A DNA stretch of 64,000 bases from an uncultured Saprospiraceae bacterium (lineage in GTDB: Bacteria; Bacteroidota; Bacteroidia; Chitinophagales; Saprospiraceae), in assembly GCA_938007965.1 (NCBI GenBank), contig CALLMH010000002.1, forward strand, positions 28,394 to 92,393. Reading direction: 5' to 3'. Position numbers and translations under genes: made by a program. Shown piece after piece: positions 9 to 49,880 of this stretch. Below the pieces are notes generated by a model. The model was not told the DNA's origin. It saw nothing but the letters and a program-made list of their open reading frames with translations, and made no database searches. The stretch's first letter is position 1. Each line of letters starts with the position of its first letter.

Positions 9-2684
9 ATGAAGAAAAAGCTAACTATTATCATCCTGTGTTTTATTTCAATATCTATCTATGGACAAGAAAAAATTCTAAGCGGAATATTAGAAGATAA
101 GGGAGAGCCAATCTTATTTGCATCAGTGGCAGTCTATCGAAATGGTGTACTAGTCCGCGGTACCGATACTGATCTCGATGGAAAATATAAAGTACTATGC
201 ATGCCGGGCGATGAGATCGAAGCGTCATATATAGGTTACACGCCGAAGAGATTTACGGTCACTCCTGATATGTTAGAGGCAATTAATACCACTAAGATGA
301 AAAAGGTGACTTCCATATTGGCTTCTTCATTTTCGCAAGCAATACGCAAGAGAAAGATTAAATGGGATAGCTTAAAACAGATCGATAAAGGCATAATTCC
401 AAGATCGTATAAGATCGCTAATGTGCATAGTCATTACAATACTACGGACATATCTATAGATGGCGATTATCTCAAGTTTACCAAACCAAAAGAAAGTATT
501 AAATACAATATTGACTTGAAGCAGACTGTGGGTGTTTCATATATTTCGAATAAGAATATACACCGGCTTCAGAATCAGTATGGACAGGGCAGACCAGTAG
601 ATGGAGTATTCCTACAAGCAGATGGAGTAGGCGAGGTGCCATTCTCTTGGGATTCTCGGATAGAGACGAATGTACCGGATAACAATCTCATCTCTCCTAG
701 CACATTTTCTTCGACTCAGATGAAAGCTGATGTTGTGATAGGAAGTAAGCGACATTATTTCTCTTTTACTAGGAAGGCAGAATCAGATATATTCAGAGCT
801 GGAAATCAAGAGATCACGAGAGGTAAAATAGGCATGATGAATTATAGTCAAAACAGTCATGTCCTAATTACAGAAGTATCTGCTACCCATACCAAATTGA
901 ATAATCACAATACCAGCGGTTACTATCAGAATGTATTGAGATCAATGATGGTCCAGAGTCCATCTTTTGACTCTACGCGTAAGATCGATAATGAGTTTGT
1001 GGCGTTTTCACCTTCATTCAATAATCCCAGATGGCTACTTGCCAACAACACCAACGAACTAAAAAGGAAAAATATCTCACTATTCATCCAACATAAAAAT
1101 CATCAATGGAATAGAAATTTCCAATATTCGAATGCTCTAAAACTGGAAGCTGATTACATTGATATCGTCGAACGCATCTCAGCTGAGACTATCGGAGTGC
1201 CCCAAGGGTCGCTTAGGATGTTTGAGTTTTTCTATCCTAAGTTAAGTCTGGTCTCTAATGTGAAGAAGTATATCCAAAGACAACAAAAGGCTTATCTGTA
1301 TCTAGATAATTTTATGGAAGCAGAATATTTGAGATTTAGAGCATCAGATTCATCATCAGAAGAATTTTCTAATCAGCTATACCGAGCATCACCAAGGATA
1401 GGAGTCAATCTCAATCACAATACCTATCGGCTTGATGTAGCATATCAACCCATTATATCTTCAATCCAACCAACCGATTGGTTATCCTCTAATTTTGATT
1501 TCACTTATCTTATTAACACGGATAAGAAATACCTCGATAGGATAGATCTCAAATCTAGTTATCAGCGAAGAGCTAAGAATCAGGATCTATTTCTGAATCG
1601 TACAAACTATTCTGCCCAAGCGATGAATAGTTTTGACGTCTTAGGATCGACCATAGATAGACCTCTCTTCCTTCCTAGTGATCTAGCGAATGAAATATCA
1701 GAGACGATTAAAGTTGCTATTGGATTTACGAATAGGTACCACTCTAATACCCTACAGACGAGCCTTACATTTCGAAATCTCAGGCAGTCAGATGTGATTT
1801 TCCCAGTACGAGAGGGTGATAATTTTGTGATGAGGAATGTTGGCAGTTTTACCACTAATGCCATAGAATGGAGATCAGATGTCAACCTGCGAAAACGAAA
1901 TCGTACCCTGTCTTATAATGGTCAACTCAATATTATCAAGTACAGAACCAACGTGACGGATACGAATCAAAATAGTGATGTGATCATCTCTGGATTTTCA
2001 AATGTATCAAAACAATTTGTTGAAGATCAGCCGATTGGAATTATCGTTGGCAATGACTACCACCGCGATGAAGATGGAAAGTTGATAATCGGTCAGGATG
2101 GTTTTCCGACGCTTGATACAGAAAATAAGATCATAGGCGATCCGACTCCAATGCTCGTAGGCGAGATGAACCATAGAATAGGTAAAGGAAAATATAGCTT
2201 CTCTGTCAATATCGATGGTCAATTAGGCGGTGAGGTATGGAATGGTACGCAGCAGGCATTAGACTATTACGGTGTATCCCAATATACAGCCGATCAAAGA
2301 GAAGTCACGGATTTTATTTTTGATGGTGTAGATATCAATGGGAATATAAACACAAAAAAAGTAGCCCTAGCCGATCCCTTGCTCGGTCTCACAGGAAATA
2401 GATGGACTCGATATGGAGCGGAGGGAGTTGCCTCGGATTATATCATAGATGCCAGCTATCTCAGACTCAAGAGGGTTGCTTTTGGATATACGAAGACTAT
2501 TGATTATGGATATGCTAGTAGACAGATAGTCGTAAGTTTATTCGCTACGAATTTACTCACGTTTGCTCCTTTCGAGGGATTTACTACCAATTACTTATTT
2601 GAAGATGATCTATCAAGTGGTCTTCAATATTTCAATCAGCCTATGACATCCCAAGTAGGTATTTCTGCACATTTTAAACTATAA
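9..2684 (+). CDS. SusC/TonB-dependent-receptor-like outer membrane barrel with N-terminal carboxypeptidase-regulatory-like domain; canonical plug apparently missing
   Basis: Signal peptide (MKKKLTIIILCFISISIYGQ), CarboxypepD_reg-like N-terminus (ILEDKGEPILFASVAVYRNG...GYTPKRF), SusC-like barrel motifs (LQNQYGQG, PTPMLVGEMNHRIGKGKYSFSVNIDGQLGGEVWN, C-terminal YLRLKRVAFGYT...LFATNLLTF). Confidence 0.8.
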   Translation: MKKKLTIIILCFISISIYGQEKILSGILEDKGEPILFASVAVYRNGVLVRGTDTDLDGKYKVLCMPGDEIEASYIGYTPKRFTVTPDMLEAINTTKMKKVTSILASSFSQAIRKRKIKWDSLKQIDKGIIPRSYKIANVHSHYNTTDISIDGDYLKFTKPKESIKYNIDLKQTVGVSYISNKNIHRLQNQYGQGRPVDGVFLQADGVGEVPFSWDSRIETNVPDNNLISPSTFSSTQMKADVVIGSKRHYFSFTRKAESDIFRAGNQEITRGKIGMMNYSQNSHVLITEVSATHTKLNNHNTSGYYQNVLRSMMVQSPSFDSTRKIDNEFVAFSPSFNNPRWLLANNTNELKRKNISLFIQHKNHQWNRNFQYSNALKLEADYIDIVERISAETIGVPQGSLRMFEFFYPKLSLVSNVKKYIQRQQKAYLYLDNFMEAEYLRFRASDSSSEEFSNQLYRASPRIGVNLNHNTYRLDVAYQPIISSIQPTDWLSSNFDFTYLINTDKKYLDRIDLKSSYQRRAKNQDLFLNRTNYSAQAMNSFDVLGSTIDRPLFLPSDLANEISETIKVAIGFTNRYHSNTLQTSLTFRNLRQSDVIFPVREGDNFVMRNVGSFTTNAIEWRSDVNLRKRNRTLSYNGQLNIIKYRTNVTDTNQNSDVIISGFSNVSKQFVEDQPIGIIVGNDYHRDEDGKLIIGQDGFPTLDTENKIIGDPTPMLVGEMNHRIGKGKYSFSVNIDGQLGGEVWNGTQQALDYYGVSQYTADQREVTDFIFDGVDINGNINTKKVALADPLLGLTGNRWTRYGAEGVASDYIIDASYLRLKRVAFGYTKTIDYGYASRQIVVSLFATNLLTFAPFEGFTTNYLFEDDLSSGLQYFNQPMTSQVGISAHFKL

Positions 2685-2688
2685 AATC

Positions 2689-5600
2689 ATGAACACTATC
2701 AAACAAATGCTCATTCTTATTGCTCTTATTTTTTCATCAACGATGATCGCTCAGATCAGCCCTGCAGATATGGTAGAGAAAATCTATATCCAAACGGATA
2801 AACCAATGTATGTACCAGGCGATAATATTTGGTATAACCTTACTGTATACAATGGTCAAAACCTACCTGCTCTACTCAGTGATCAGGTACACATCCAACT
2901 GAAAAAGCCTGACGGATCGAACCTTTATGAGAAGAAATACAGCCTCACCAATGGTCAGGTTTCTGATGCTATACCCTTGATAGCTGACACTCCAGGTGGT
3001 CTGTATAAGTTTATTGCTACTACTGGATGGATGACTGAATGCGATCCCACTTATATCTATGAAAAAGAAATTTATATCCAAAAATATATATCTCCAAGAA
3101 TATTGATGATTATCGAATTGGATAAAGAATCCTACGGTTTAGGAGAAGAAGTAGTGGCGACATTTACCACTAAGGATCTCAAGGACAATGCGCTTTCTGA
3201 TCTGGAGGTGCAATATGCACTGCATGCTAATGGTCGTGAGCTGACACGGCTATATGCGCAAACGGATGACCATGGCCAAGCGATACTGAAAGCTCAAGTG
3301 CCCGACGATATTGAGGGAAGGTCACTATCAATTAGTGCAAAGATCACTCATAAATCTCAAATAGAATCAATAAGGAAGACAGTGCCCGTAATCTTGGATG
3401 ATATTGATATTCAGTTTTTGGCCGAGGGTGGTTTTCTTATTGAAGGATATGAGAATACGCTAGCATTCAAGGCGCTTGCGCCAAATGGGAAGCCCGTGGA
3501 TGTAGAAGGTGATATTATTGATAGCAATGGCAATAGAGTGGGAGGATTTGTAAGCCTGCATGATGGGATGGGAGAGACCTCAATCATTCCTGAAGAAAGT
3601 GAACAGTATTTTGCCAGATTGTGCAAGCCATATAAGTCAGATCAACTAATTCCAATTGTAAATATAGCTTCAGTAGGTTCAAAAATAGAAATAGAATCAA
3701 TAACAAATGACATCCTAGAAGTCAGAATGATGGGTAGCTTAGATCAGAACCTCAGTCTAGAATTGTCTGATGTATCAGTGGTGAAGTGGAACACGGATAA
3801 TGTCAAACGATCGAATATGATTCGCATTAAGCAACTGCCGAGGGGTATATATCGACTATCGTTGAAAAAATCAGACCAGACGATTTCAGAACGATTGGTA
3901 TTTCTCCACCCTGACCGTAAACTGAATATTGACGTGATATCAGATAAGAAAAGCTACGGGCTGAGAGATAATGTCACGGCTAAGATCAAAACTACAGATA
4001 GCAATGGATTACCCGTATCGTCTCAGGTATGCGTTGCAGTAGTAGAGGATAAGATGCTATCTCATGCTGATGATAAAGAAGCTCATCTGGTTTCCGAGTT
4101 ACTGTTGAGTTCAGAATTGAGCGGCGATATCCACGAACCAAATTATTATTTTGATTCACTTAATATGAAAAGTATCGCTGCACTAGATTTGCTGATGTTG
4201 ACTCATGGGTGGAGATCTCATTTTGATTCTTTGAATTTAGAAACTGCGCATAGATATTATAGATCTGCGAATACCTACGTAGGCCAATTGATCAATCATA
4301 AAAAGAATAATAACGTTGGAGGTGTTGAGGTTTTTGTCATTGATTATAAAGATAGATCTGCCTATATCATTCTGACGGATGAAGACGGTTACTTTAGCGT
4401 GATCAGAGAAGATGGGAAAAATCTAACGATCAGTGCCAATGTAAGTAATCGAGAGTTTTATTTCAAAGAAGTAAATCTTAACACCCTGAAGAATAGGTCG
4501 CCTGTGAAATTTAAAAAATTGGAAGAAAAAATTGCAAAGCGTGGGATGATAGGTAAGATAGTAATGGTTGAACCTAAGAAGACGAAACCAGTAAAAGTGA
4601 GTCTGGACGAAGGCGTACTAATGGATGAAGTGCAAATTGTCCAGTATAAAGTTCCGCTGATACAGATGGATAATACGACGAGTGGGAGTACAGTCACAGC
4701 CGAATCTATCAGAAGTCTACCGACGAAATCGATTAATGCGATCGCAGCCACTACAGCGGGCATTGCTTCTACTGATGAAGGAGCTATTTCGATAAGAGGA
4801 TCGAGATCAGCTTCTACTGTGTATTATGTAGACGGAGTGAGGGTCCATGGATTACTACCACAGAGCGCATTTCGACATGAATATGAGAAGGAGTTCGATG
4901 AGGAAATAAGTCTAGATTTTCCTAACTATAGAAACAATAATAAAACCAATTTTAATCGGATAATCTATAGTAGAGTATCTGCTAAGAGAAAATCACTTCC
5001 AAGAAATATTGCATTCTATGTTCCGAAGTATGGGCAAGAGAAGATTGATAAACGAAACGATTTTAGACAAACGCTGTATTGGAACCCAATCGTCCAGACG
5101 GATATCAATGGAGAAGCTGAAGTTTCATTTTCTACATCTGACGAGGTGACTTCTTTTTCAGTAGTAGTAGAAGGCATATCTTCTTACGGAGAGATTGGAA
5201 GAGGAAAGGGAAAAGTAATAGCAAGCAAGCCACTGAATATCGACTGCAAGATTCCATCTTACTTCGTGTTAGGAGATACCTCGGTCCTCAGAATCGTAGT
5301 GACAAATGATTCTGACAAAGATCAAGAGATCACAGCTCAGGTAGGGAGCACAGGATCATTAGCTCTAGAAGTAATCGATGCCGCTGTACAGAAAATAGAG
5401 GCACAGAGTAGTCACGTATTCTATGCGAGGGCAATCGCTACAGGAGATATTGATGGGCATATAGATATCAAAATATCAACTGATGATGATTCTGATTACC
5501 TCTCAAGAGATTATGATATACTGAGCCCTTATTTTCCGTTGTGTTATACAGCTTCGGGTGTAGATTCGGACACATTTAGCTGTACGCTCAGTGAGCCGAT

Positions 5601-7101
5601 TGCTTCTTCTATTCAAGTTGATTTTAAGACCTACAATCCTATATCAGGGGCATTAAGTGGGATAGAGTCTATGCTGAGACGACCAGGAGGATGTTTCGAG
5701 CAAGTCTCCTCTAGCACCTATCCTAATGTGATGGTCCTCCAGTATTTACAAAATCAAAACAACATAGACAGTGAGATTAAGGAAAAGGCATTAGTTTATA
5801 TAAAAGACGGGTACAAACGTCTCGTCGATTATGAAACAAAGGTAGATGGATTTGATTGGTGGGGGAGAGCACCAGGACATGTCGCTCTCTCGGCATACGG
5901 ACTATTAGAGTTTTCTGATATGATGGAAGTATATAGTAAGGTCGACAAACGAATGATAAAAAGAACCATCGATTACTTAGTGAAAAATAGAGATGGAAAG
6001 GGTGGATTTACAATGGGTAAAGGATATGATGGATTCGGATCTGCCATATATGAAGTCCAGACCGCATATGTGCTCTATGCACTATCTGAACAATCAATTA
6101 AAAAAGTAAGCCTCGAAAAGGAGTATAATAAAGCAAAGAAAAATGCATTGAAAACAAAAGACATGTATTTATGCGGGCTTTTGGCAATGACAGCTTATAA
6201 TAATGGATTGAATGATGACTATAGGAATTTTATACATATCATAATGAATGCAATGGACGTCAAAGATCTGAGCTCAATACAATCCAAAAATACAATTACT
6301 CGATCGGGTCAATCGGATAATAATACTGAAACAATCGCTGTATGCGCCCTGGCCTATATGAAGTCTTCAAATGAGGATCCTAGTGAAGTCGCACGGTTGA
6401 TAGATCATATTTCAGGTAAGCGAAAACGAGGGAGATTCGGTTCTACGCAGGCTACTTGTCTCGCGATCAAAGCCATATTGAAGTATGCGGATTGGCAAGG
6501 TGGGAAGAGTACTGAGGGGAAAATATTGGCCAGCTTGAATGGAGAGAGTATCTCAGCCAATTCTACGGACAATGACTACGGTAGCCTCATAGATGATGGA
6601 TACATTTCCTTTTCTACGGACTACTCACAGCCTTCTCAGTGGAGTTACTCTCTAGATGTCAGGTACGAAAGTCTTATCCCCCCGACGGCTTCTGATCATT
6701 CTCTAGATCTAAGTGTCACACTAAATCAATCAACTTGTGAACTGGCAGATATAGTGGGGATGGATATTGTTATGAAAAATAAAGAACAGCAATCACTGGC
6801 GAACCCTACACTGGTAATCGGCATACCGTCTGGGATGAGCCTCGATCATAAGCAATTAAAGGAAATGAAAGAAAATGAAACGTTTGATTATTTTGAGATT
6901 TTTGAAAATAGACTTGTTATCTATTACAATGAAATATTGGCATGGGATGTTAAGAAAATGTCCTTAGCTCTAAAAGCTGATGTGCTTGGTAAATATACAG
7001 CGCCACCGAGTAGTGCCTACTTGTACTATGATGAAGAGAATATAATCTGGCAGAAGGGGGATCACATAGAAGTGATATATAACGAAGAAAATTTTGAGTA
7101 A
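2689..7101 (+). CDS. Alpha-2-macroglobulin family protein (MG2 domains, thioester motif, internal carboxypeptidase-reg and TonB-plug-like segment)
   Basis: MG2-like N-terminus (KIYIQTDKPMYVPGDNIWYNLTVYN), A2M domain (YWNPIVQTDINGEAEVSFSTSDEVTSFSVVVEGIS), thioester motif GGCFEQ at about 5686-5703, plug-like ESIRSLPTKSINAIAATTAGIASTDEGAISIRGSRSASTVYYVDGVRV. Confidence 0.88.
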   Translation: MNTIKQMLILIALIFSSTMIAQISPADMVEKIYIQTDKPMYVPGDNIWYNLTVYNGQNLPALLSDQVHIQLKKPDGSNLYEKKYSLTNGQVSDAIPLIADTPGGLYKFIATTGWMTECDPTYIYEKEIYIQKYISPRILMIIELDKESYGLGEEVVATFTTKDLKDNALSDLEVQYALHANGRELTRLYAQTDDHGQAILKAQVPDDIEGRSLSISAKITHKSQIESIRKTVPVILDDIDIQFLAEGGFLIEGYENTLAFKALAPNGKPVDVEGDIIDSNGNRVGGFVSLHDGMGETSIIPEESEQYFARLCKPYKSDQLIPIVNIASVGSKIEIESITNDILEVRMMGSLDQNLSLELSDVSVVKWNTDNVKRSNMIRIKQLPRGIYRLSLKKSDQTISERLVFLHPDRKLNIDVISDKKSYGLRDNVTAKIKTTDSNGLPVSSQVCVAVVEDKMLSHADDKEAHLVSELLLSSELSGDIHEPNYYFDSLNMKSIAALDLLMLTHGWRSHFDSLNLETAHRYYRSANTYVGQLINHKKNNNVGGVEVFVIDYKDRSAYIILTDEDGYFSVIREDGKNLTISANVSNREFYFKEVNLNTLKNRSPVKFKKLEEKIAKRGMIGKIVMVEPKKTKPVKVSLDEGVLMDEVQIVQYKVPLIQMDNTTSGSTVTAESIRSLPTKSINAIAATTAGIASTDEGAISIRGSRSASTVYYVDGVRVHGLLPQSAFRHEYEKEFDEEISLDFPNYRNNNKTNFNRIIYSRVSAKRKSLPRNIAFYVPKYGQEKIDKRNDFRQTLYWNPIVQTDINGEAEVSFSTSDEVTSFSVVVEGISSYGEIGRGKGKVIASKPLNIDCKIPSYFVLGDTSVLRIVVTNDSDKDQEITAQVGSTGSLALEVIDAAVQKIEAQSSHVFYARAIATGDIDGHIDIKISTDDDSDYLSRDYDILSPYFPLCYTASGVDSDTFSCTLSEPIASSIQVDFKTYNPISGALSGIESMLRRPGGCFEQVSSSTYPNVMVLQYLQNQNNIDSEIKEKALVYIKDGYKRLVDYETKVDGFDWWGRAPGHVALSAYGLLEFSDMMEVYSKVDKRMIKRTIDYLVKNRDGKGGFTMGKGYDGFGSAIYEVQTAYVLYALSEQSIKKVSLEKEYNKAKKNALKTKDMYLCGLLAMTAYNNGLNDDYRNFIHIIMNAMDVKDLSSIQSKNTITRSGQSDNNTETIAVCALAYMKSSNEDPSEVARLIDHISGKRKRGRFGSTQATCLAIKAILKYADWQGGKSTEGKILASLNGESISANSTDNDYGSLIDDGYISFSTDYSQPSQWSYSLDVRYESLIPPTASDHSLDLSVTLNQSTCELADIVGMDIVMKNKEQQSLANPTLVIGIPSGMSLDHKQLKEMKENETFDYFEIFENRLVIYYNEILAWDVKKMSLALKADVLGKYTAPPSSAYLYYDEENIIWQKGDHIEVIYNEENFE

Positions 7102-7149: not shown

Positions 7150-7818
7150 TTATTTTTTCAGTGAAGCTATGATGCTTAATGCTTCCTTACAACCATTTTC
7201 TATTTTGGCGTAATCTTCATTAGCTACAGCCTCCTTAGTGATAAGTTTAGATCCCATACCTACGCAAGTAACGCCAGCATCGAACCAGCCTTTGAGATTC
7301 TCTAGAGTAGGGGAGACTCCACCAGTCGGCATTACGCTCGTCCATGGTTGAGGACCTTTGATGGCTTTGACCATATTCGGTCCATATATACCACCTGGAA
7401 ATAATTTCACAATCTCGCACCCGAGTTCTTCTGCTCTACATATCTCTGTCAATGATCCACATCCTGGAGCCCACATGACTTTTCTACGATTACATACCGT
7501 GGCGATGTCTTCTCTCAGAACTGGAGTCACTATGAAGTTAGCGCCTAATGCCATGTACAAAGATGCAGATGCAGCATCAGTAACTGAGCCTACTCCTAAG
7601 ATCATGCCTGGTAATTCTTCCAAACAGTACTTAGATAAATCACGGAAGATCTCATGGGCAAAATCACCTCTACTTGTAAATTCTAATAATCGAGCACCGC
7701 CATCGTAGCAGGCTTTTGTTACTTTTTTAGCGACCTCTATATTATTATGGTAAAATAAAGGTACCATACCAGTATCCTTCATCACTTGTGCTACTTCTAA
7801 TCTGCTATATTTTGCCAT
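7150..7818 (-). CDS. eda: Bifunctional 4-hydroxy-2-oxoglutarate / 2-dehydro-3-deoxy-phosphogluconate (KDPG) aldolase
   Basis: 222 aa; KDPG-aldolase family motifs (EFTSRGDFAHEIF, GVGSVTDAASASLYMALGANFIVTPV, WAPGCGSLTEI, KLFPGGIYGPNMVKAIKGPQPW, MPTGGVSP). Confidence 0.93.
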   Translation of the reverse strand: MAKYSRLEVAQVMKDTGMVPLFYHNNIEVAKKVTKACYDGGARLLEFTSRGDFAHEIFRDLSKYCLEELPGMILGVGSVTDAASASLYMALGANFIVTPVLREDIATVCNRRKVMWAPGCGSLTEICRAEELGCEIVKLFPGGIYGPNMVKAIKGPQPWTSVMPTGGVSPTLENLKGWFDAGVTCVGMGSKLITKEAVANEDYAKIENGCKEALSIIASLKK

Positions 7819-7907
7819 ACGTTTTTAATTTATAATTCCTAATTGATAGCTGATCACAATTCATGAAATCTATCAAATCTATTTATAGTTCAGTATCAAA
7901 CTATCTA

Positions 7908-8945
7908 CTATCTACTTACTCTTCCGCTTGCATCACCTCCCATCAGTTTTTCAACTTCATCAAGAGTTACTAAATTAGCATCGCCGAATATTGTATGTTT
8001 CAAACATGATGCTGCAACTGCAAAATTCAATGCATTTTGATCATCATCAGGATATTTCAGTAGGCCGTATATTAGACCACCCATGAAACTGTCTCCACCT
8101 CCTACACGATCCACGATGTGTGTGATGTCATATGACGGTGCAGAATATAATGTCTTTCCATCATATAATACGCCAGTCCATGTATTATGCGATGCTGAGA
8201 TTGATCCTCTGAGCGTAGTAATTACTTTCTTAGCTCTTGGGAACATCTCCATCAATTGCTTTAGTACTGATAGGTATGCTTCTCCGTCTACCGATCCACC
8301 ATGTGTTACATCTACTCCTTCTGGGTGGAGACCGAAGTGTTTTTCTGCATCCTCTTCATTACCAAGGATGATGTCGCAACCCGCTACTAGCTCAGGCATT
8401 ACATCCATTGGATCTTTACCATATTTCCAGAGTTTCTTACGGTAGTTTAGATCTGTAGATACGGTCACACCTAATCGATTGGCAGTTTGGATAGCTTCTA
8501 GACATGCATCAGCTGCACCTTGCGATATAGCAGGAGTAATCCCAGTCCAATGAAACCAACCTGCGTCTTTGAAGACTTCCTCCCAGTCGACCATTCCTTT
8601 CTCTATCTGAGACATTGCGGAATGAGCACGATCATATACTACTTTACTTCCTCTACTTACTGCTCCAGTTTCTAAGAAATAGATGCCGAGTCTCTCTCCA
8701 CCTCTGATTATGCTATTGGTGTCTACACCTCTTTTTCTCAATTCCATCAATGCACAATCTCCCAGATCATTCTCAGGAAGTCTTGTTACAAATTCTGAAG
8801 GGACTCCGTAATTAGCCAGTGAGACCGCTACATTACTTTCTCCTCCTCCATATATCACATCAAAATTGTTGGTTTGAGAAAACCGTTTCCATCCCGGAGG
8901 GCTTAATCTCAACATGATTTCTCCAAAAGTGACTACCTTTTTCAT
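7908..8945 (-). CDS. kdgK: 2-keto-3-deoxygluconate kinase, PfkB family
   Basis: MKKVVTFGEIMLRLSPPGWKRFSQ; GGGESNVAVSLANYG; DRVGGGDSFMGGLIYGLL (PfkB signature); next to the KDPG aldolase gene. Confidence 0.9.
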   Translation of the reverse strand: MKKVVTFGEIMLRLSPPGWKRFSQTNNFDVIYGGGESNVAVSLANYGVPSEFVTRLPENDLGDCALMELRKRGVDTNSIIRGGERLGIYFLETGAVSRGSKVVYDRAHSAMSQIEKGMVDWEEVFKDAGWFHWTGITPAISQGAADACLEAIQTANRLGVTVSTDLNYRKKLWKYGKDPMDVMPELVAGCDIILGNEEDAEKHFGLHPEGVDVTHGGSVDGEAYLSVLKQLMEMFPRAKKVITTLRGSISASHNTWTGVLYDGKTLYSAPSYDITHIVDRVGGGDSFMGGLIYGLLKYPDDDQNALNFAVAASCLKHTIFGDANLVTLDEVEKLMGGDASGRVSR

Positions 8946-9227
8946 TTGTTTATTTTTTAGACTTTATTTTTCTATTGAATTACGTGCGTTTACTTTTAAT
9001 AATTCATACTTAACTTCGCACTACTGTACATTTTAGACTATTTTTTGAGTGCAAATTGGGTTCGTTTGCGAAAATAATCATTTTCTTGAGTGTCTAATAA
9101 TAACTTATCAGAGTTTCATATGATTTAAAATTTATTTCAATATTATATGTAAATCACGTTCTCAGAATTTCATCTTTCGTTCCCTTATATAACTACAAAA
9201 ACATAATGGAATAACTTTTTATAAAAA

Positions 9228-9260
9228 GGGCTAAACCTTTTTTTAATTAAAGTTTAGCCC
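9228..9260 (-). terminator. Intrinsic terminator of the SDR-proximal operon end
   Basis: Inverted repeat GGGCTAAAC ... GTTTAGCCC; T-run on the minus strand after the stem (CCCTTTTTATAAAAAG). Confidence 0.8.
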
Positions 9261-9318
9261 TCTAGGTTGATATTTATTTCTCGAAGGAAGATTCTTCCAT
9301 GAAATCAATGTCTGATTA

Positions 9319-10077
9319 TTATATACCTAGTGCTTGTCCACCACCGATTTGTATAGTTTCGGCTGTGATGAATGATGCATCCTTACTTGCTAAGAACGCT
9401 ACCACACCAGAGACATCTTCTGGTTGGCCTAATCTACCCAACATGATGTTATTGGCCCAAGAAGCAAATACTTCAGGCTTCGTAGATTTTATCTGAGAAT
9501 GGAAAGGCGTATCAATCGTACCTGGAGATACTGCATTGACTCTGATACCATATTCCGCTAGATCTTTTGCTAGTGCTCTTGTGATTGCATGTACACCTGC
9601 TTTCGATGTGCCATAGATTCCTGCGCCTGGTCCACCAGCATTCCATGCGGCATTAGATGTGTAATTGATTATTGTAGGGTGCTCTCCTTTTTTTAGGTAT
9701 GGAATAGCTGATCTAGAAGCGAAGAAAACAGAATCTAAGTTCAGAGCCATAACTCCTCTGTAAAATTCAGTGGTCATTTCTTCAAATCTTGATCTTCCGC
9801 CCAATCCTCCAGCGTTGTTTACTAAGACATCTATTTTGCCATATTTGTCGCCGATCTTGGTGATGTTAGCAGCTACTGCTTCTTCATCTGTCACATCAAA
9901 TCCACAAAATTCAGCTGTGTATCCGAGGTCAGTGAGCTCTTTGGCCTTTGCTTCTCCTAGATCATGTTGGAGACCATTAAGTACTACTTTATAGCCATCC
10001 TGACCTAATCTTTTTGCTACTTCAAATCCGATACCACTTGTGGCACCTGTTACTATTGCTACTCTATTTGTATTCAT
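9319..10077 (-). CDS. SDR-family oxidoreductase, likely 4-deoxy-L-erythro-5-hexoseulose uronate (DEH) reductase by context
   Basis: Rossmann TGATSGIG motif, NNAG, YGTSKAG active-site motif, SPGTIDTPF; located in an alginate catabolic operon. Confidence 0.85.
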   Translation of the reverse strand: MNTNRVAIVTGATSGIGFEVAKRLGQDGYKVVLNGLQHDLGEAKAKELTDLGYTAEFCGFDVTDEEAVAANITKIGDKYGKIDVLVNNAGGLGGRSRFEEMTTEFYRGVMALNLDSVFFASRSAIPYLKKGEHPTIINYTSNAAWNAGGPGAGIYGTSKAGVHAITRALAKDLAEYGIRVNAVSPGTIDTPFHSQIKSTKPEVFASWANNIMLGRLGQPEDVSGVVAFLASKDASFITAETIQIGGGQALGI

Positions 10078-10132
10078 AAAATTATTTTAAATGTCGATTT
10101 ATTAAGTTTTAACTAGTTTATTTCTTTTTATT

Positions 10133-11476
10133 TTAATGTGGTCTAACCTTCTGCACTTTAGGGATCAATACCCATACTGCGAATAGAGCCGAAGCGGTAA
10201 GACCTGCCCCTACATAAAATGCAGGTGCATAATTCTCTCCTTTTGTCAACCAAGGCACTAAAATTGTAAAGCCAAATACGGCTAATTTAGCGGCCATGCC
10301 TGCAAATCCTGACAACGTTCCTACTGTTTTTTTACTAAACATATCACTAGGTAGAGTTTGTACATTTCCTATAGATGTCTGGAATCCAAATAGGATTATT
10401 GCCATTATGATTACAGCGGCAGAGGGAGAATCCATCGTTACGCCTACCAAATTTAACACAGAATTACTAAAAGATGCAAAAGAAGCTGGATCAATCAGCA
10501 GAAAGAATGATGGAAACATAATCAAACAGCCAAGTGTGATTACCCATTTACGTGTTTTGTTGACACTCCATCCTTTTTTGATATTCTTTTGTGCTAGAAG
10601 ACCACCAAACCAAGCACCCAACATAGCTCCTACGTAGGGTACCCAACCATAGATACCGATAGTCTTGACATCCATACCATATACACCATTAAGATAGATA
10701 GGGATCCATGCTACAAATAACCACCATATCGGATCTATTGCTGCTGAGGCCATGATTACACCCCAACTTTCTTTGTGTCCGAATAATTCTAATGTGTTAG
10801 GATTATATTCTTCTTTATTCTCTATGTCCTGCTCAGTTATCTGTCCACTTAGGATGTAGGCTTTTTCTTCTTCAGATATATTTGGGTGATATTCTGGCGG
10901 TGCTTTTACGATCAAAAACCACGGAATCAACCATAATAGACCGATCAGACCCACAAGAATAAAAATCATCTGCCAACTCAAGTATACGGTCATCAATGCG
11001 ATCAAGGGAATAGCTACAATACCACCTATAGCAGCTCCAGAATTGAAGAGTCCTTGGGCAAATGCTCTTTCATGTGCGGGAAACCATTCGGCATTTCCTT
11101 TTGCAGCACCTGGCCAGTTACCAGCTTCTGCCAAACCTAAAACAGATCTGAATATGGCAAAGGACAAAGCACCAGTCGCAAATGCATGCAGCGCTGTCGC
11201 TATAGACCATACTCCGATGGATATTGCAAATCCAATCCTCGTTCCTATCCAGTCGAATATTTTTCCGAAGAGAGCTTGTCCCCCTGCATAGAAGAATATG
11301 AAACTACTTGTGATTATAGCGTATATTTCTTTTCTACCATCTGCATCCATATCGGGATACATTGATTGTGCGATATCAGGCCATAAAACACCTAGCGCTT
11401 GTCTATCTATATAATTTATGACAGCCGCTAATGCTATTAGACCTATAACCCACCATCTTAATCCTTTACTATTCAT
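10133..11476 (-). CDS. MFS transporter, hexuronate/ACS-family type
   Basis: About 12 hydrophobic segments; N-terminal WWVIGLIALAAVINYIDRQALGVLWPDI typical of ExuT/GudP-like MFS; LAEAGNWPGAAKGNAEWFPAHERAFAQGLFNSGAAIGGI. Confidence 0.9.
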   Translation of the reverse strand: MNSKGLRWWVIGLIALAAVINYIDRQALGVLWPDIAQSMYPDMDADGRKEIYAIITSSFIFFYAGGQALFGKIFDWIGTRIGFAISIGVWSIATALHAFATGALSFAIFRSVLGLAEAGNWPGAAKGNAEWFPAHERAFAQGLFNSGAAIGGIVAIPLIALMTVYLSWQMIFILVGLIGLLWLIPWFLIVKAPPEYHPNISEEEKAYILSGQITEQDIENKEEYNPNTLELFGHKESWGVIMASAAIDPIWWLFVAWIPIYLNGVYGMDVKTIGIYGWVPYVGAMLGAWFGGLLAQKNIKKGWSVNKTRKWVITLGCLIMFPSFFLLIDPASFASFSNSVLNLVGVTMDSPSAAVIIMAIILFGFQTSIGNVQTLPSDMFSKKTVGTLSGFAGMAAKLAVFGFTILVPWLTKGENYAPAFYVGAGLTASALFAVWVLIPKVQKVRPH

Positions 11477-11506
11477 GCTTTTGGAATTAATTCTATTACT
11501 GAAATT

Positions 11507-11881
11507 CTAATTTTTATCGCTAAAGTATGCTACACCAGACCCGTCTAAGAAGTCTTCTCTGACAGGGCTAAAAGTATCTATCAATTTCCCTTCTTCTAGG
11601 CAGACTGCGCTGTGTAGTAGATTTGGTTCTATATAGACCCCATCTCCAGCCGTCACAATTTGTTTCACCCCATCTATCTCAAATTCAAATTTTCCTGAAA
11701 CACAATAAGTCGCCTGCGTATGGAAGTGTTGATGTGGTGAGCCGAGTGCTCCCTTTTCAAATTTCACCAAGACCATCATGATCTGATTGTCATATCCTAA
11801 GAATTTCCTAGACACTCCTCCCCCGAGTTCTTCCCATTCCATCTTATCTGTTAGGATGTATTTTTCGCTATTTCTCTTCAT
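11507..11881 (-). CDS. kdgF: Cupin-domain protein, KdgF-like (unsaturated uronate linearisation)
   Basis: 124 aa cupin with GSPHQHFHTQATYCVSGKFEFEIDG and GDGVYIEPNLLHSAVCLEEGKLIDTFSPVREDFL; in operon with lyase, MFS and SDR. Confidence 0.82.
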   Translation of the reverse strand: MKRNSEKYILTDKMEWEELGGGVSRKFLGYDNQIMMVLVKFEKGALGSPHQHFHTQATYCVSGKFEFEIDGVKQIVTAGDGVYIEPNLLHSAVCLEEGKLIDTFSPVREDFLDGSGVAYFSDKN

Positions 11882-11977
11882 GTTTTTTCCGTTTTATTAT
11901 TCTATTTTTTTATTCACTTCATGATTGATAGAGTATTCCCTTACGGTAGCTATAATCTATAATCGGTGGATACGAGA

Positions 11978-14017
11978 CTACTTATTTGGTTTGGTACTTT
12001 CACCTATCGTTGCTTCTTTGAACCATACCTCAGTGTAGCTGCCGTTGGCATATTGCTTGGCGATATCTCCACCATAAATCTCGGCACCTGTACACCAGAC
12101 GATATTTTTCTCAGGGTCTTTACCGTTCGTCTGATTATATGCACCTTGCTTGAAGTAGTTGAGTTCGCCACTGTAGGCGTTCTCTCGTTCTACACCATCC
12201 TGACCCATAGGGACGAATAGTTTTTGTGTTTGCTCAGGGATGTCAGCTTTCGTGGTGTACTCTGACTGTAATAAGTTCTTAGCAAATGTCTTAGTCTCAT
12301 GTCCTTCACTAGAAAAAGTAAGATACATTATGCCTTCATGGACATTGACTTCGTAGCTGAAAGGTTCACTCAGTTTGATTCCATCTTTTGGTTCTGCGGG
12401 ATATTCATCGGGTCCAGAGCCTACTACTGACATGTCATGTCCCCAGATAGGGTAGGAGTAGTCCCATCTTCCACCATTATCATCTCCAGCGGTATTGATT
12501 TCATAATTCCAGAATACAGATCCTTTTTCATGTCCTGGAAACTTCTTGTAGAATAATTTGAAAGGTTCATTCTCATGTCCTTCGCCACTATGGATCTGAC
12601 CGACTACGACGGAGTAAGACGCTGCGACTCTTGCATCGCCAGTTGTAGATACATGCATTACTTTGCATGTGCCCGTAAGTTTGCCTCCATCCTCTGGTAT
12701 CCACTCTCTTTTTTCATGGAGTTCACTTCTTGTATTGCTAGAGTTTTTTGATGTTACACCAGAATTTGGTGTTTTATAGGCTACCCAACGCATCGTTCCG
12801 TCTATGACCGTATAGAAGAAGTCTTTATGTTCGAATTTTTCTAAGTCTTTGACATGTGTTCCATCGCCTAATAGCATTTTGAATTTGTTCATAAATGGTA
12901 TAACTTCATGAGGGTATACTGTTTTCTTGCTCAAGCCGTCATTAGCGGCAAAGTAACCATCATTTGATATTGCATCTTCTGAGATTTCGATACTCGATTC
13001 TTTGAACCATACTTCGGCATAGTTCCCGTCCGCATATTGTTTTTGTATATCTCCACCGTGGGTTTCTGCACCAGCGCACCATACCATGTTTACGACAGGG
13101 TCTTTTCCGTTGGTTTGATTGTAACATCCTTGTTTGAAGAATAGTCCCTCGCCCGTATAAGCCTCTTCTTTTTCTACTCCGTCTTGACCTATCTGGCCAA
13201 ATAGTTTTTTTGCTTGTTCAGGCATATCATCTTTAGTAGAATATTCTGATTGCACTATATTTTTGGTGAATGTTTTTGTTTCGTGTCCTTCACTACTGAA
13301 TTTCAAGTTCATGATACCGTTCTTTACGACTACTTCATAACTCATTTCTTCGCCTAATTTGATACCATCTTTTGGTTCTGGTGGGAAGTCTGAATCACTC
13401 GTTCCTACCACTGACATATCGTAACCCCATATAGGGTATGAGTAATCCCATCTGCCGGAGTTGTCATCACCAGCGGTATTGATTTCATAATTCCAGAATA
13501 CAGACCCTTTGGTATGACCAGGAAATTTCTTGTAGAACAATTTGAATGGTTCATTTTCATGTCCATCGGCACTGTGGATTTGACCTATTACAACTGAGTA
13601 GGATGCAGCGACTCTAGGGTTACCAGTCTTTGATACATTCATTACTTTACAGGTACCTGTCAATTTATTTTCTGAGAGCGCAGACCATTTTTTTGATTGG
13701 GCCAATTCTGTCCTTGTATTATTAGATGTGCCGTGAGTATTACCTGCATTAGGAGTCTTATATACTACCCAATCCTGCTCGTCCTTATTGACAGTATAGA
13801 AAAAATCTTTATTTTCGAAATCAATTGGATGTCCTACATTTGTACCATCGCCTAGTATTAATTTGTAATTATCGAATATATCGAAAGTACTGCTCGGATA
13901 TGTAGTCTGTGTATTGCTATCGATCGATGAGAGGCTATTATGCTTACAAGAGCTGGTAGAAAGTATAATTACGAATAATGCTGAGCATACTAGTAATGGA
14001 TATTTATTTAAGTTCAT
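11978..14017 (-). CDS. Lipoprotein with two tandem PL7-type alginate lyase domains
   Basis: Lipobox-like SALFVIILSTSSCKH; PL7 motifs in each half: RTELAQ/RSELHE, VVIGQIHS/VVVGQIHS, FFKQGCYNQ/YFKQGAYNQ; halves align over about 300 aa. Confidence 0.87.
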   Translation of the reverse strand: MNLNKYPLLVCSALFVIILSTSSCKHNSLSSIDSNTQTTYPSSTFDIFDNYKLILGDGTNVGHPIDFENKDFFYTVNKDEQDWVVYKTPNAGNTHGTSNNTRTELAQSKKWSALSENKLTGTCKVMNVSKTGNPRVAASYSVVIGQIHSADGHENEPFKLFYKKFPGHTKGSVFWNYEINTAGDDNSGRWDYSYPIWGYDMSVVGTSDSDFPPEPKDGIKLGEEMSYEVVVKNGIMNLKFSSEGHETKTFTKNIVQSEYSTKDDMPEQAKKLFGQIGQDGVEKEEAYTGEGLFFKQGCYNQTNGKDPVVNMVWCAGAETHGGDIQKQYADGNYAEVWFKESSIEISEDAISNDGYFAANDGLSKKTVYPHEVIPFMNKFKMLLGDGTHVKDLEKFEHKDFFYTVIDGTMRWVAYKTPNSGVTSKNSSNTRSELHEKREWIPEDGGKLTGTCKVMHVSTTGDARVAASYSVVVGQIHSGEGHENEPFKLFYKKFPGHEKGSVFWNYEINTAGDDNGGRWDYSYPIWGHDMSVVGSGPDEYPAEPKDGIKLSEPFSYEVNVHEGIMYLTFSSEGHETKTFAKNLLQSEYTTKADIPEQTQKLFVPMGQDGVERENAYSGELNYFKQGAYNQTNGKDPEKNIVWCTGAEIYGGDIAKQYANGSYTEVWFKEATIGESTKPNK

Positions 14018-44957: not shown

Positions 44958-47900
44958 TTGATAGATATCAAAAAGTTAAGAAAATATACATTTTACATAC
45001 TAGCATTTTTACTAATTCTATTGGTGATTATATGGTTATTGCTGCAGACTTGTTGGCTACAGAATAAGCTCTTACCCATTGTTTTGAAAAATGTGTCCAG
45101 TGCACTAGGAACTCCTGTAAAAGCGGATAATATTGATGTTGATTTTTTTGAGGAGATAACTTTGAATCAGATTTTAATAGAGGGGCTGGAAGGAGATACT
45201 TTATTATCTGCTAACAAGCTCAATATAGACTTTAGCATCTTTTCGATATTAGATAAGACCATTTTTGTTGATGATATTACTTTGTCGGGTGCTCGGATCA
45301 ATCTGATCGAAGAGAATGAAGCATCTAACTATCAACATATTCTCGATCATCTTGCAGGCAGTACTTCATCACCCTCTCCAGAAAAAATAGATACATCATC
45401 GTCATCATGGAAGTTCGGACTAGATAAGATATTACTCGATGATGTGGGATTTAGGATGGTAAGTGAAGATTCGGATATGGAAGTAATGATCCCAATATTT
45501 GAGGCTGATTTTGATAGTTTCACAGAATCTTTTGATGAGGTATCTATCGGTAAGGCCTACTCTGAAGGCTTGCTGTTTTCCTTGATAGAAAAGAAAAAGT
45601 CCACCATCGAAAGTGGACCTACTCAATTTCCTACATTACCTATACAGTTGAGTATCGGTAATCTTGATCTGAATAATGCATCCATCGTCTATCAGAAAAA
45701 GTATCTTCCGAAGAAAAAATACGGATTCGATACTAATCATATCGATATAAGTAATGCCAATATCATGGCTAATGATATCAAATGGGGAAACCTAATCTCT
45801 GCGGATTTCCAAGAATTGAGTCTCAAGGAGAAGAGCGGAATGCATATCAAATCTTTAGCTGGGTCAATAGAACTCAGTGATCGTAAATTATCCATCAAGG
45901 AACTAGATCTAGATACCAATGATAGTGAAGTGGCAGTAAGCCTCCAAGCTGAATACAGTAGCTTTGATGCATTGATATCAGATTTTACAAATCAAAAAAT
46001 ACAGGCAAACATTGAAAAGGCGACCATAAATAAAAACGATGTAAAATATTTCATCCATCCTGCAGAAATTACATTTCTGAATATGAATCGTTTGAATCAG
46101 ATCAATTATGAAGGTGACATTAATCTGAATAATGGTAAAATGGAATTGGCCGATACAAATCTTGATATAGATAAAAAGATAGTTGGTGAAGGATACATTT
46201 CTATCAACACGGGAAAGCCGTTTTCCTATACCTTACGCATCAATAAGTTGAGGTCTACGCAAGATTATCTAACGGCTATATTTCCAGATTTTAAGATGCC
46301 TGCGGAGGTTAAAAATTTAGGTAAACTAATAGGCTCTATCTCAGCTACAGGAGATGCCTCTAGTGTGTCAGTTAGCGATATCAATCTTTCTTCTGGTGAT
46401 GATACCAAGGTCAAGGGAAGAGGTGAGATAACTGGACTAGATGGTAAGTCAGACCTTTGGCTCGATTTCGATTTCGACGAACTGAGGATGAACCCTAATG
46501 AATTGTTACAAGGGGAAGCTATCCCTGTACAATTGTATAATCTGGGTAATATCGATTACATCGGGTCCCTGAGGGGTAATGCGACTAACATCACGCTAGA
46601 CGGAGACCTAAAGACGGATATAGGAGATGGGATTTTTGATGCGTCGGTGCAGTTTAACCCTGATTACTCTGATGCGACTTACAAAGGCGAATTCGATTTG
46701 ACAGCATTTGATATCGGTAAGTTTCTACAAGATACAACGTTTGGTATTGCAACTATTTCTGGGATGATAGACGGCAGCGGGCTCAGCTTGGAGGCACTAG
46801 ATGCAACCATGAATCTCAATAGTAAACAATTCGAATATCAAGGACAAGCATACGAGGATATTGTCATCAAAGGCATATACAAGGATCATTCTTTCACAGG
46901 TCGTGTCGAATCTGATGATGATAAACTGAAACTTAACTTCGACGGTACTGCTGATCTCAATGGTGCGGATAGTCGGATAGAATTTACTTCTACAGTAGAT
47001 CGACTTGATCTTACACAATTTGGATTGGGAGATAGTATTCTCTGGATATCTGGTCTGCTCAATGGAACCACCAGAGGAGACAATATTGACAATTTTACAG
47101 GAAAAGCTACGATCGACAATTTGAGATTAGGCACAAAGAGAGGTGTATATACATCTGACACTACGCTTTCTATTATAGCCAAAGATCGAGAAGATGGTAC
47201 TAAGATTTATACGTTGAATAGTGCCTTCTTAGACGCTCAAGCGGAGGGGAATATACAGTTGTCTATGGTAGGAACAGTGCTAGAGGAGTACTTTAAAAAC
47301 TACATACCAGTCGAGAACGGATTTGAGCAAATAGCTACCATAGATACCTCGCTTATCGAGCATCAAAATTTCAAATTGTCGCTCAAGACCAAAGATGTAA
47401 ACTCCATCATCGAAGTACTGACAGAGGAAGAAGTGAAATTAAAGTCGGCTAATCTAAAAGGTAAGTTTTCAAGTGACGACTCTAAAATAGATTTCAAAGG
47501 TAGCATAGACAGTTTCTATTATGGTGGATATTTAGTAGAGAGTGGAGATTATTTCTTTGATGGAAGGCGTGACTTTATCAATGGGAATATCATATTGGAT
47601 AATATAATGAAGGACAATGACATCCTTATCCATGAGGCGAATATCAATACAAATCTTAATAGTGAAGTAGCGGGATTGAATCTCGAATTATTCGGCGAAG
47701 GTGATAACCAAACTTTACTGATCGGAGGCGATATATCGAGGACATCGGAGTATGTAATCAACTTTCATGATACACTAATAGTCAATAGATCTATATGGCA
47801 GTTCTCACCGTTTAATAAATTGACATACGGTGATGATGGTCTTTACATGCAGGATCTCAAAATAAGTAAGGAAGAACAATCTATTACCATATATACGGAC

Positions 47901-49880
47901 GACAGAGAAGAGGGGCAGGCTATAGAGGTACTGATGGATAACTTCATTTTATCAGAATTGACTTCGATCATCGGAAAAGAAAATGAATACTTCGAAGGAG
48001 AGATCAATGGTGCAGCTGTCATAAATAAAATATGGGAGAAACCCTTCGTAACGGCTGATTTGACTATGAATGACATCATGGTCGATGATTATCAGGTCGG
48101 GATGATCAAAGTAGAAGCAATCCAAGATAATGAAAGTAATACAGTGATTACTAAGATGGACCTAAATGGACCTGGGAATGATGCGACACTAGACCTAACC
48201 TATGGCATAGGTGATAGCTCACTTAAAGGTTATCTAGATATGAAACGCCTAGAGGTCAATACTTTGGACCCTTTTCTCACGGAAATATTGAGAGATAGCG
48301 AAGGAGCATTGATAGGAAAAATAAAAATTGAAGGAACTCCTTCACAGCCTAATGTAAACGGAAAAATAGAACTCAAGGGGATTCAGACCACTCCAGTATT
48401 TACCAATAGTAGATATGCCATCTTAGATCAGACGATAGACATTGATAACAAATCGATTACGTTTGGTGATATGGTCATCATGGACGAAAAGGATAATGTA
48501 GCCAATCTATCAGGTAAAGTTCTACACACGAATATGAGTGAGATGTTCTTGGACTTAAACATAGATACGGATCAATTCTTGTTTCTAAATACGACGCCTT
48601 TGGAGAATCCACTCTTCTATGGAAATGTGACAGTAGAAGCGGCAGTATCTATAAAAGGACCACTCGAAGATATCCAAATCGATGGTTCAGCAAAAGCAAT
48701 CAATAGTTCTAAGTTGTCCCTATCACCATTTGCGGTAGATCAATTGGATTACGATACAGACTTTATCATATTCGCTGATCCAAGAAAAGTTTCACTGGAT
48801 AGTCTCAGTGAACAATCAAAAAGTACCAATACCTTTCCATTTGATCTGGATATGAAGCTTACCGTAGAGGAGGATTCGGAATTTGAGATGGTGATGGATC
48901 CGATCACAGGTGACAATATTACAGGACGAGGTGTTTCTAATTTAGTCTTCAATTTGAAAAAGACCGGCGAGATAGAATTATACGGAACATATACGGTTAC
49001 AAGTGGAAAGTATCTCTTTTCATATGGCCTGATATCAAAAGAATTTGATATCAAAGAAGGCGGACGAGTCATATTCAATGGTGATCCGTTAGAAGGAACT
49101 CTGGACGTAACTGCAGTCTACAGAACGAATACAGCAGTCTATGATTTGCTGACACAAGAGTTAGAGTCACAAGATGGAGCCGAGGCCGCAGACGCCAAAC
49201 GAAAACGAAATATAGACGTAGTACTTAATCTAGCCAACAGTATCTCTCAACCAGAAATCAAGATGGATATTTTATACGAACCATCGACGCTATCAGGCAA
49301 CTCTACGGTGTCTGATATGGTGGTTGCGAAACTGGATCGCTTGAGAAATAATCCAAATGAGCTGAATAATCAGGTATTCGGTCTGTTGCTCTTTGATAGT
49401 TTTATATCATCGTCAGGATCGGAGACAGATCTGGCGCAGTCGGGCACCAATTTTGCCATCAATAGTCTCAGTGGATTGGTTACAAATCAATTGAACAAAC
49501 TTGCCAATGGACTGGTCAAAGGGGTAGAGCTTAATTTTGATGTAAATTCATACAGTTCGGATTTATTGTCTACGGGAGATGCTGGATTGATTACAGAATT
49601 AGGTGTCGGGGTATCTAAGAGCTTATTCGATGATAGACTTACGCTCACCGCTGGAACAAATGTAGATCTAGAGAGCAATTCTACCGAGGCACTATTCAAT
49701 AATCTGGCGGGGGATTTTGTGATCTCTTATAAACTCACGGAAGATGGAAGATATAATCTCAAAGTATTCAGAAAGAGTAATTACGACGCGATACTCGATG
49801 AGAATGCGTCGAAAAATGGCGTGGGATTCAATGCTAGAAAGGAATTTGGTTCGATAAAAAGGAATAAAGGAAATAATTGA
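44958..49880 (+). CDS. tamB: TamB/DUF490 (AsmA-like) translocation and assembly module protein; apparent TTG start
   Basis: 1640 aa with N-terminal TM, long beta-helical region and C-terminal DUF490 domain (GTYTVTSGKYLFSYGLISKEFDIKEGGRVIFNGDPLEGTLDVTAVYRTNTAVYDLL). Confidence 0.9.
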   Translation: MIDIKKLRKYTFYILAFLLILLVIIWLLLQTCWLQNKLLPIVLKNVSSALGTPVKADNIDVDFFEEITLNQILIEGLEGDTLLSANKLNIDFSIFSILDKTIFVDDITLSGARINLIEENEASNYQHILDHLAGSTSSPSPEKIDTSSSSWKFGLDKILLDDVGFRMVSEDSDMEVMIPIFEADFDSFTESFDEVSIGKAYSEGLLFSLIEKKKSTIESGPTQFPTLPIQLSIGNLDLNNASIVYQKKYLPKKKYGFDTNHIDISNANIMANDIKWGNLISADFQELSLKEKSGMHIKSLAGSIELSDRKLSIKELDLDTNDSEVAVSLQAEYSSFDALISDFTNQKIQANIEKATINKNDVKYFIHPAEITFLNMNRLNQINYEGDINLNNGKMELADTNLDIDKKIVGEGYISINTGKPFSYTLRINKLRSTQDYLTAIFPDFKMPAEVKNLGKLIGSISATGDASSVSVSDINLSSGDDTKVKGRGEITGLDGKSDLWLDFDFDELRMNPNELLQGEAIPVQLYNLGNIDYIGSLRGNATNITLDGDLKTDIGDGIFDASVQFNPDYSDATYKGEFDLTAFDIGKFLQDTTFGIATISGMIDGSGLSLEALDATMNLNSKQFEYQGQAYEDIVIKGIYKDHSFTGRVESDDDKLKLNFDGTADLNGADSRIEFTSTVDRLDLTQFGLGDSILWISGLLNGTTRGDNIDNFTGKATIDNLRLGTKRGVYTSDTTLSIIAKDREDGTKIYTLNSAFLDAQAEGNIQLSMVGTVLEEYFKNYIPVENGFEQIATIDTSLIEHQNFKLSLKTKDVNSIIEVLTEEEVKLKSANLKGKFSSDDSKIDFKGSIDSFYYGGYLVESGDYFFDGRRDFINGNIILDNIMKDNDILIHEANINTNLNSEVAGLNLELFGEGDNQTLLIGGDISRTSEYVINFHDTLIVNRSIWQFSPFNKLTYGDDGLYMQDLKISKEEQSITIYTDDREEGQAIEVLMDNFILSELTSIIGKENEYFEGEINGAAVINKIWEKPFVTADLTMNDIMVDDYQVGMIKVEAIQDNESNTVITKMDLNGPGNDATLDLTYGIGDSSLKGYLDMKRLEVNTLDPFLTEILRDSEGALIGKIKIEGTPSQPNVNGKIELKGIQTTPVFTNSRYAILDQTIDIDNKSITFGDMVIMDEKDNVANLSGKVLHTNMSEMFLDLNIDTDQFLFLNTTPLENPLFYGNVTVEAAVSIKGPLEDIQIDGSAKAINSSKLSLSPFAVDQLDYDTDFIIFADPRKVSLDSLSEQSKSTNTFPFDLDMKLTVEEDSEFEMVMDPITGDNITGRGVSNLVFNLKKTGEIELYGTYTVTSGKYLFSYGLISKEFDIKEGGRVIFNGDPLEGTLDVTAVYRTNTAVYDLLTQELESQDGAEAADAKRKRNIDVVLNLANSISQPEIKMDILYEPSTLSGNSTVSDMVVAKLDRLRNNPNELNNQVFGLLLFDSFISSSGSETDLAQSGTNFAINSLSGLVTNQLNKLANGLVKGVELNFDVNSYSSDLLSTGDAGLITELGVGVSKSLFDDRLTLTAGTNVDLESNSTEALFNNLAGDFVISYKLTEDGRYNLKVFRKSNYDAILDENASKNGVGFNARKEFGSIKRNKGNN

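Follow-up and report, generated by a model that had tools for sequence, protein, structure and literature searches.

The window analysed here, a stretch of 64,000 nucleotides from an uncultured Saprospiraceae bacterium, opens with two genes that raise the question of whether an outer-membrane channel can be closed by a plug that belongs to another protein. The first gene encodes a SusC-like barrel and the second a member of the alpha-2-macroglobulin (A2M) family. The initial annotation had placed the two open reading frames on the same strand with a spacing of 4 bp, and this layout is right, including the coordinates (Table 1). A plug-less channel next to a plug-bearing A2M suggests, as far as sequence can tell, a two-protein gate that is so far undescribed; no description of a pair of SusC and A2M proteins was found in the open-access literature searched.

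Table 1. Features of the two-gene unit, with nucleotide positions in the window and residue numbers in the respective protein
Feature	Position	Strand	Basis
SusC-like barrel gene, plug-less, 891 aa; first in the two-gene unit	9..2684	+	Pfam, TIGR04056, AF2, Foldseek, profile alignment
N-terminal carboxypeptidase-regulatory-like (NTE) domain, aa 29-97	93..299	+	PF13715, 27.3 bits, below cut-off; AF2 strands 22-83
Linker of 67 aa (aa 98-164) in place of the Ton box and plug of SusC proteins	300..500	+	No plug match; low pLDDT
SusC-type beta-barrel, aa 165-891	501..2681	+	Foldseek best match BT2264; profile match to BT2264 166-984
A2M-family protein gene, 1470 aa; second in the two-gene unit	2689..7101	+	MG2, A2M and TED domains
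MG2 domain, aa 31-110	2779..3018	+	PF01835, 40.5 bits
Carboxypeptidase-regulatory-like Ig domain ahead of the plug, aa 529-594	4273..4470	+	AF2 strands; PF13620 in 21/32 homologues
Ton-box-like motif LMDEVQIVQY, aa 644-653	4618..4647	+	Aligns with LxEVVVVGY of homologous A2M plugs and with Bt1763 DEVVVTG
Half-plug (N-terminal two-thirds of a TonB-receptor plug) at the bait position, aa 660-726	4666..4866	+	PF07715, 29.2 bits
A2M domain immediately behind the plug insert, aa 795-882	5071..5334	+	PF00207, 41.7 bits
Thioester (TED) domain, aa 990-1266	5656..6486	+	PF07678, 77.3 bits
Thioester motif CFEQ, aa 1002-1005	5692..5703	+	Fits the CXEQ consensus

The barrel protein had been described as lacking a plug, and our searches agree with this. 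PF07715 was unmatched at E<1 in the Pfam search, which returned a carboxypeptidase-regulatory domain alone, and this below threshold; TIGR04056 (SusC/RagA) covers the barrel part only, with 64 bits, which is under the 368-bit family cut-off. The AF2 model of the barrel protein alone (alignment of 18 sequences, pLDDT 81.9) consists of an N-terminal domain at residues 22-85, a poorly ordered linker at about 90-160 and a barrel from residue 164 on, and a plug fold is absent from it. The top Foldseek match of this model is the SusC protein BT2264 (5fq6/5fq7, E about 1e-34, TM 0.68), followed by Bt1763 and RagA. At the sequence level, the barrel profile aligns from profile position 165 onward with residues 166-984 of BT2264, the plug of which spans residues 23-168, and the alignment of full SusC with the barrel profile is overwhelming over the barrel. 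The predicted barrel is of the SusC type (22-strand class), as assigned by fold match and profile and not strand by strand. The absence of the plug extends to the homologues: PF07715 matched none of 33 homologous barrels, a custom plug profile run over 37 barrels reached a highest score of 3.5 bits, and no LxEVVV-type Ton box was seen by eye between the CTD and the barrel in the barrel sequences inspected. Together, Pfam, the custom profile and the AF2 model rule out a plug hidden inside the barrel. The linker between the N-terminal domain and the barrel has a length of 64-80 aa in the 17 homologues measured, and by profile alignment with full SusC proteins it may, at low confidence, retain a remnant of the final plug hairpin. 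The N-terminal domain itself is seemingly absent in loci of the Chitinophagaceae type (e.g. L166). A relationship to BamP (NF053692) was considered and not adopted; weak matches were obtained for 5 of the 33 barrels (best 2.9e-5), the window barrel was unmatched, and the BAM paper draws no connection.

The same PF07715 search matched 30 of the 32 partner A2Ms, and in the window A2M the plug-like segment reported earlier scores above the 23.9-bit cut-off. CXEQ is the thioester consensus of bacterial A2Ms (PMC4498604), and GCFEQ was found in every full-length A2M homologue listed. The MG2 and A2M domains are present in all 32 partner proteins, the TED in 30 and PF13620 in 21. The plug insert sits between the MG chain, where a bait-region domain was matched in 23 of the 32 homologues (weakly in L166), and the A2M domain. 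It is between the MG chain and the A2M domain that the bait is located in classical A2Ms, and human alpha-2-macroglobulin is a protease trap. Most paired A2Ms carry a complete SusC-type plug (profile positions 1-119) that starts with the Ton box LxEVVVVGY, the counterpart of the Ton box DEVVVTG of Bt1763 (PMC7782687), and the plug of the L064 A2M aligns end to end with the plugs of Bt1763, BT2264 and RagA. The plug tree was poorly resolved, and a single clade of paired-A2M plugs was unsupported.

Co-occurrence of the two genes extends well beyond the window. The two-gene unit is conserved at 33 or more loci, in five families of Bacteroidota, namely Flavobacteriaceae, Chitinophagaceae, Cyclobacteriaceae, Saprospiraceae and Dysgonomonadaceae, and the named hosts include Kordia, Aureibaculum, Psychroserpens, Robertkochia, Pustulibacterium, Winogradskyella, Filimonas and Dysgonomonas. 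The intergenic gap is mostly 3-5 bp, or the genes overlap. Since the survey loci were gathered with an A2M query and not with a barrel query, the neighbouring barrels are independent of the query. We examined 61 non-duplicate full-length A2Ms, taking a score of at least 30 bits as a clear plug. A plug-less barrel was located directly upstream of 29 of the 29 A2Ms with such a plug, and of 1 of the 32 A2Ms with a lower score, this exception carrying a 24-bit plug. The nominal Fisher p-value is about 1e-16, which overstates the independence of the observations because many of the sampled pairs are related. A further sample of the phylum gave three plug-bearing A2Ms, all of them paired, and one A2M without a plug, which was unpaired, all as predicted. 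Clustering of the flanking genes at 33 loci showed that the pair is the sole conserved neighbourhood, with no conserved third gene. The strict pairing, the clustering of flanking genes and the further predicted pairs rule out a chance neighbourhood. Among the homologous pairs surveyed, none has the plug kept in the barrel and missing from the A2M. A SusD profile that covers one SusD type (three sequences) detected the positive controls but matched nothing in the window or in those paired loci that were searched, which speaks against a classical SusD-dependent Sus system. A defence system was also considered, and PADLOC gave no match.

Plugs and half-plugs were also found without an adjacent plug-less barrel, in short MG2 proteins, in some full-length A2Ms and in VWA proteins. 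Among full-length A2Ms that lack such a neighbour, 7 of 26 gave a plug match at E<0.1. The short proteins (~900 aa; L229-L234, L083-L134) are common in Bacteroidales and Flavobacteriales and are sometimes arranged in tandem. As in the paired A2Ms, their MG chain leads into a plug and then into the beginning of an A2M domain; unlike these, they have no TED or thioester and no adjacent barrel. A plug on an MG protein does not always imply a paired barrel of this kind. The VWA proteins L248:316-2235 (minus strand) and L249 have an N-terminal regulatory domain and then an Oar-type half-plug (in L249 by eye), which breaks off at about the place where that of the window A2M ends, and L248 also bears a T9SS sorting tail. 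In the unpaired A2M L190:5779-10956 (genome G003), the bait position is occupied by a TonB C-terminal domain (PF03544, 66.5 bits) and a carboxypeptidase-regulatory domain. The genome scan further gave a plug match in L010:4877-8899 (G000:C89), a protein of 1340 aa that by eye resembles a membrane peptidase of the M56/BlaR1 type with TonB_C-like repeats.

Such proteins invite the explanation that the plug of the A2M stays out of the barrel and is a module for binding TonB or a structured bait, the barrel being closed otherwise or acting as an anchor or receptor for the A2M. The half-plugs of VWA proteins, of which one bears a T9SS tail, and those of A2Ms without a barrel neighbour are consistent with this, as are the short MG2 proteins that carry a plug and no neighbouring barrel, and the TonB_C domain at the corresponding position of the orphan A2M. 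Indeed, a non-gating role is possible for the half-plug of the window because like half-plugs occur in barrel-less A2Ms and VWA proteins. However, this explanation does not account for the observation that, wherever a clear and complete SusC plug was found in an A2M, the adjoining barrel was without precisely that part. Nor does it account for the absence of such barrels from the matches listed for the pair-less genomes searched: no full-length plug-less barrel was apparent among the matches listed, many of them partial, for nine genomes chosen for their short plug-bearing MG2 proteins, and the barrel-profile matches listed for these genomes resemble ordinary SusC-sized frames. We consider it unlikely that the plug has its place outside the barrel.

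The plug in the window is of the Oar type, unlike the SusC-type plug in most homologous pairs, and it is incomplete, with positions 3-70 of the 107 positions of PF07715 being matched and the last third missing. It shares about 71% identity with the plug of a complete TonB-dependent receptor encoded elsewhere in this genome (G000:C11), and the plug tree groups the plugs of the window and of L056 with this Oar-type receptor (100/100). The same truncated plug is present in three genomes of the genus (G000, to which the window belongs, G064 and G848). AF2 modelled the plug region of the window A2M segment at very low confidence, for which reason we draw no conclusion on its fold. According to PMC10994204, the FpvAI plug has a mechanically labile part proximal to the Ton box and a C-terminal part that remains on the wall, and function was not restored by the C-terminal part on its own. 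By its length, the half-plug of the window would roughly correspond to the labile part of the FpvAI plug. As a consequence of the truncation, tight gating is less certain in the window than in Kordia, the Chitinophagaceae and others, and in the genus of the window the gating may be looser or altered. It is even conceivable, if doubtful, that in this genus an incomplete Oar-type half-plug replaced the plug, with gating lost and the function changed or lost. The truncated plug of the three genomes, all of one genus, and the grouping with the receptor of the same genome would fit such a decay. Nonetheless, neither reading frame is interrupted, the thioester motif has been retained and three genomes have maintained the truncated form, and this points to continued use. 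A decay of this kind would qualify, and is compatible with, the interpretation of the family as split transporters.

The initial annotation had envisaged a surface machine. In such a machine, an exported A2M would insert its plug into the barrel from outside. Many proteins are displayed at the surface of Bacteroidota, and one VWA protein with the same half-plug bears a T9SS tail. The signals in the pair itself point the other way: the barrel and the A2M have ordinary signal peptides (by eye), a lipobox was not seen by eye in the paired A2Ms or barrels, and no convincing T9SS tail was recognised in the window A2M, for which the Pfam search gave Por_Secre_tail only as a weak internal match. In addition, the Ton box of an A2M at the surface would be beyond the reach of TonB. 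Both ends of a TonB-receptor plug face the periplasm, and for this reason, together with the signal peptides without a lipobox, the body of the A2M is most likely periplasmic and a surface machine highly improbable. Gating in trans, the other part of that model, is retained here, as by sequence no plug was found in the barrel protein and no homologous pair was found with a plug in the barrel and none in the A2M; it is tempered for the window by the truncated plug.

We propose that the two proteins together probably make up a SusC-type TonB-dependent transporter that has been split in two, with the A2M in the periplasm and its plug docked in the neighbouring barrel. The barrel would descend from a SusC protein of the BT2264/RagA-like clade that lost its Ton box and plug, and these would have moved to the neighbouring soluble thioester A2M, to the bait-region position behind the MG chain and ahead of the A2M/TED part. 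From the periplasm, the plug would dock upward and close the barrel from below, and the pore would open when TonB pulls the Ton box of the A2M. The incoming cargo would then meet the thioester trap of the A2M at the mouth of the pore, where incoming proteases could be captured. RagA is a peptide importer and, since the closest solved relatives of the barrel include RagA, the cargo most likely would be peptides or proteins, possibly proteases. More speculatively, the plug might replace the bait of the A2M, such that a pull by TonB or an attack by a protease would both open the pore and spring the thioester trap, thereby coupling import to covalent capture; we put this forward only tentatively. 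There is a precedent in FpvAI, where a plug-less barrel is restored by a soluble plug expressed in trans (PMC10994204).

Several known systems resemble the pair in part. The barrel is like the SusC/RagA transporters BT2264, Bt1763 and RagA in sequence, in predicted fold and in its N-terminal regulatory-like domain, and the plug and Ton box are of the same type, but in the pair these are borne by the neighbouring protein as a separate polypeptide, and a SusD partner is missing. With the type I bacterial A2Ms, such as ECAM/YfhM of E. coli and the A2M of Salmonella, the paired A2Ms share the MG chain, the A2M domain, a TED with CXEQ and a signal peptide; unlike these, they have a CTD-like domain, a Ton box and a plug at the bait position and are partnered with an outer-membrane barrel. 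ECAM is encoded in an operon with pbpC. It is attached to the inner membrane (PMC4498604) through a lipid anchor, and the paired A2Ms differ from it in that no lipobox was seen by eye. As in the engineered split TonB receptors FpvAI and FhuA (for FhuA, Braun et al. 2003, as cited in PMC10994204), barrel and plug are on separate polypeptides. Unlike these laboratory constructs, in which the plug stands alone, the pair is natural and conserved and its plug is fused to an A2M. The T9SS translocon of Flavobacterium likewise has a large outer-membrane pore that is closed by separate subunits (the Plug protein and PorV), with SprA being a different barrel and the T9SS Plug protein being unrelated to the plug of TonB receptors. 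Deletion of both porV and plug opens this channel (PMC12611786).

The remainder of the window contains further gene groups. Downstream of the pair, on the opposite strand, positions 7150-14017 hold an apparent cluster for alginate/uronate catabolism, in which the protein encoded at 11978-14017 has two Alginate_lyase2 stretches, and a second alginate lyase is encoded at 60060-62864. At 44958-52153, a TamB-domain protein (1640 aa) adjoins an Omp85/POTRA protein (758 aa), forming a TAM-like pair.

If our proposal is correct, the pair would represent a TonB-dependent transporter that has been split in nature, with its moving part transferred onto a protein of the protease-trap type. The exit of the plug from the barrel, which has long been disputed, would become testable in a native system because the plug can be added, removed and tagged independently. 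The pair would place bacterial A2Ms at the mouth of an outer-membrane pore and would supply what triggers them there. It would also account for one class of plug domains in non-receptor proteins of the Bacteroidota, which annotation may misname as TonB receptors.
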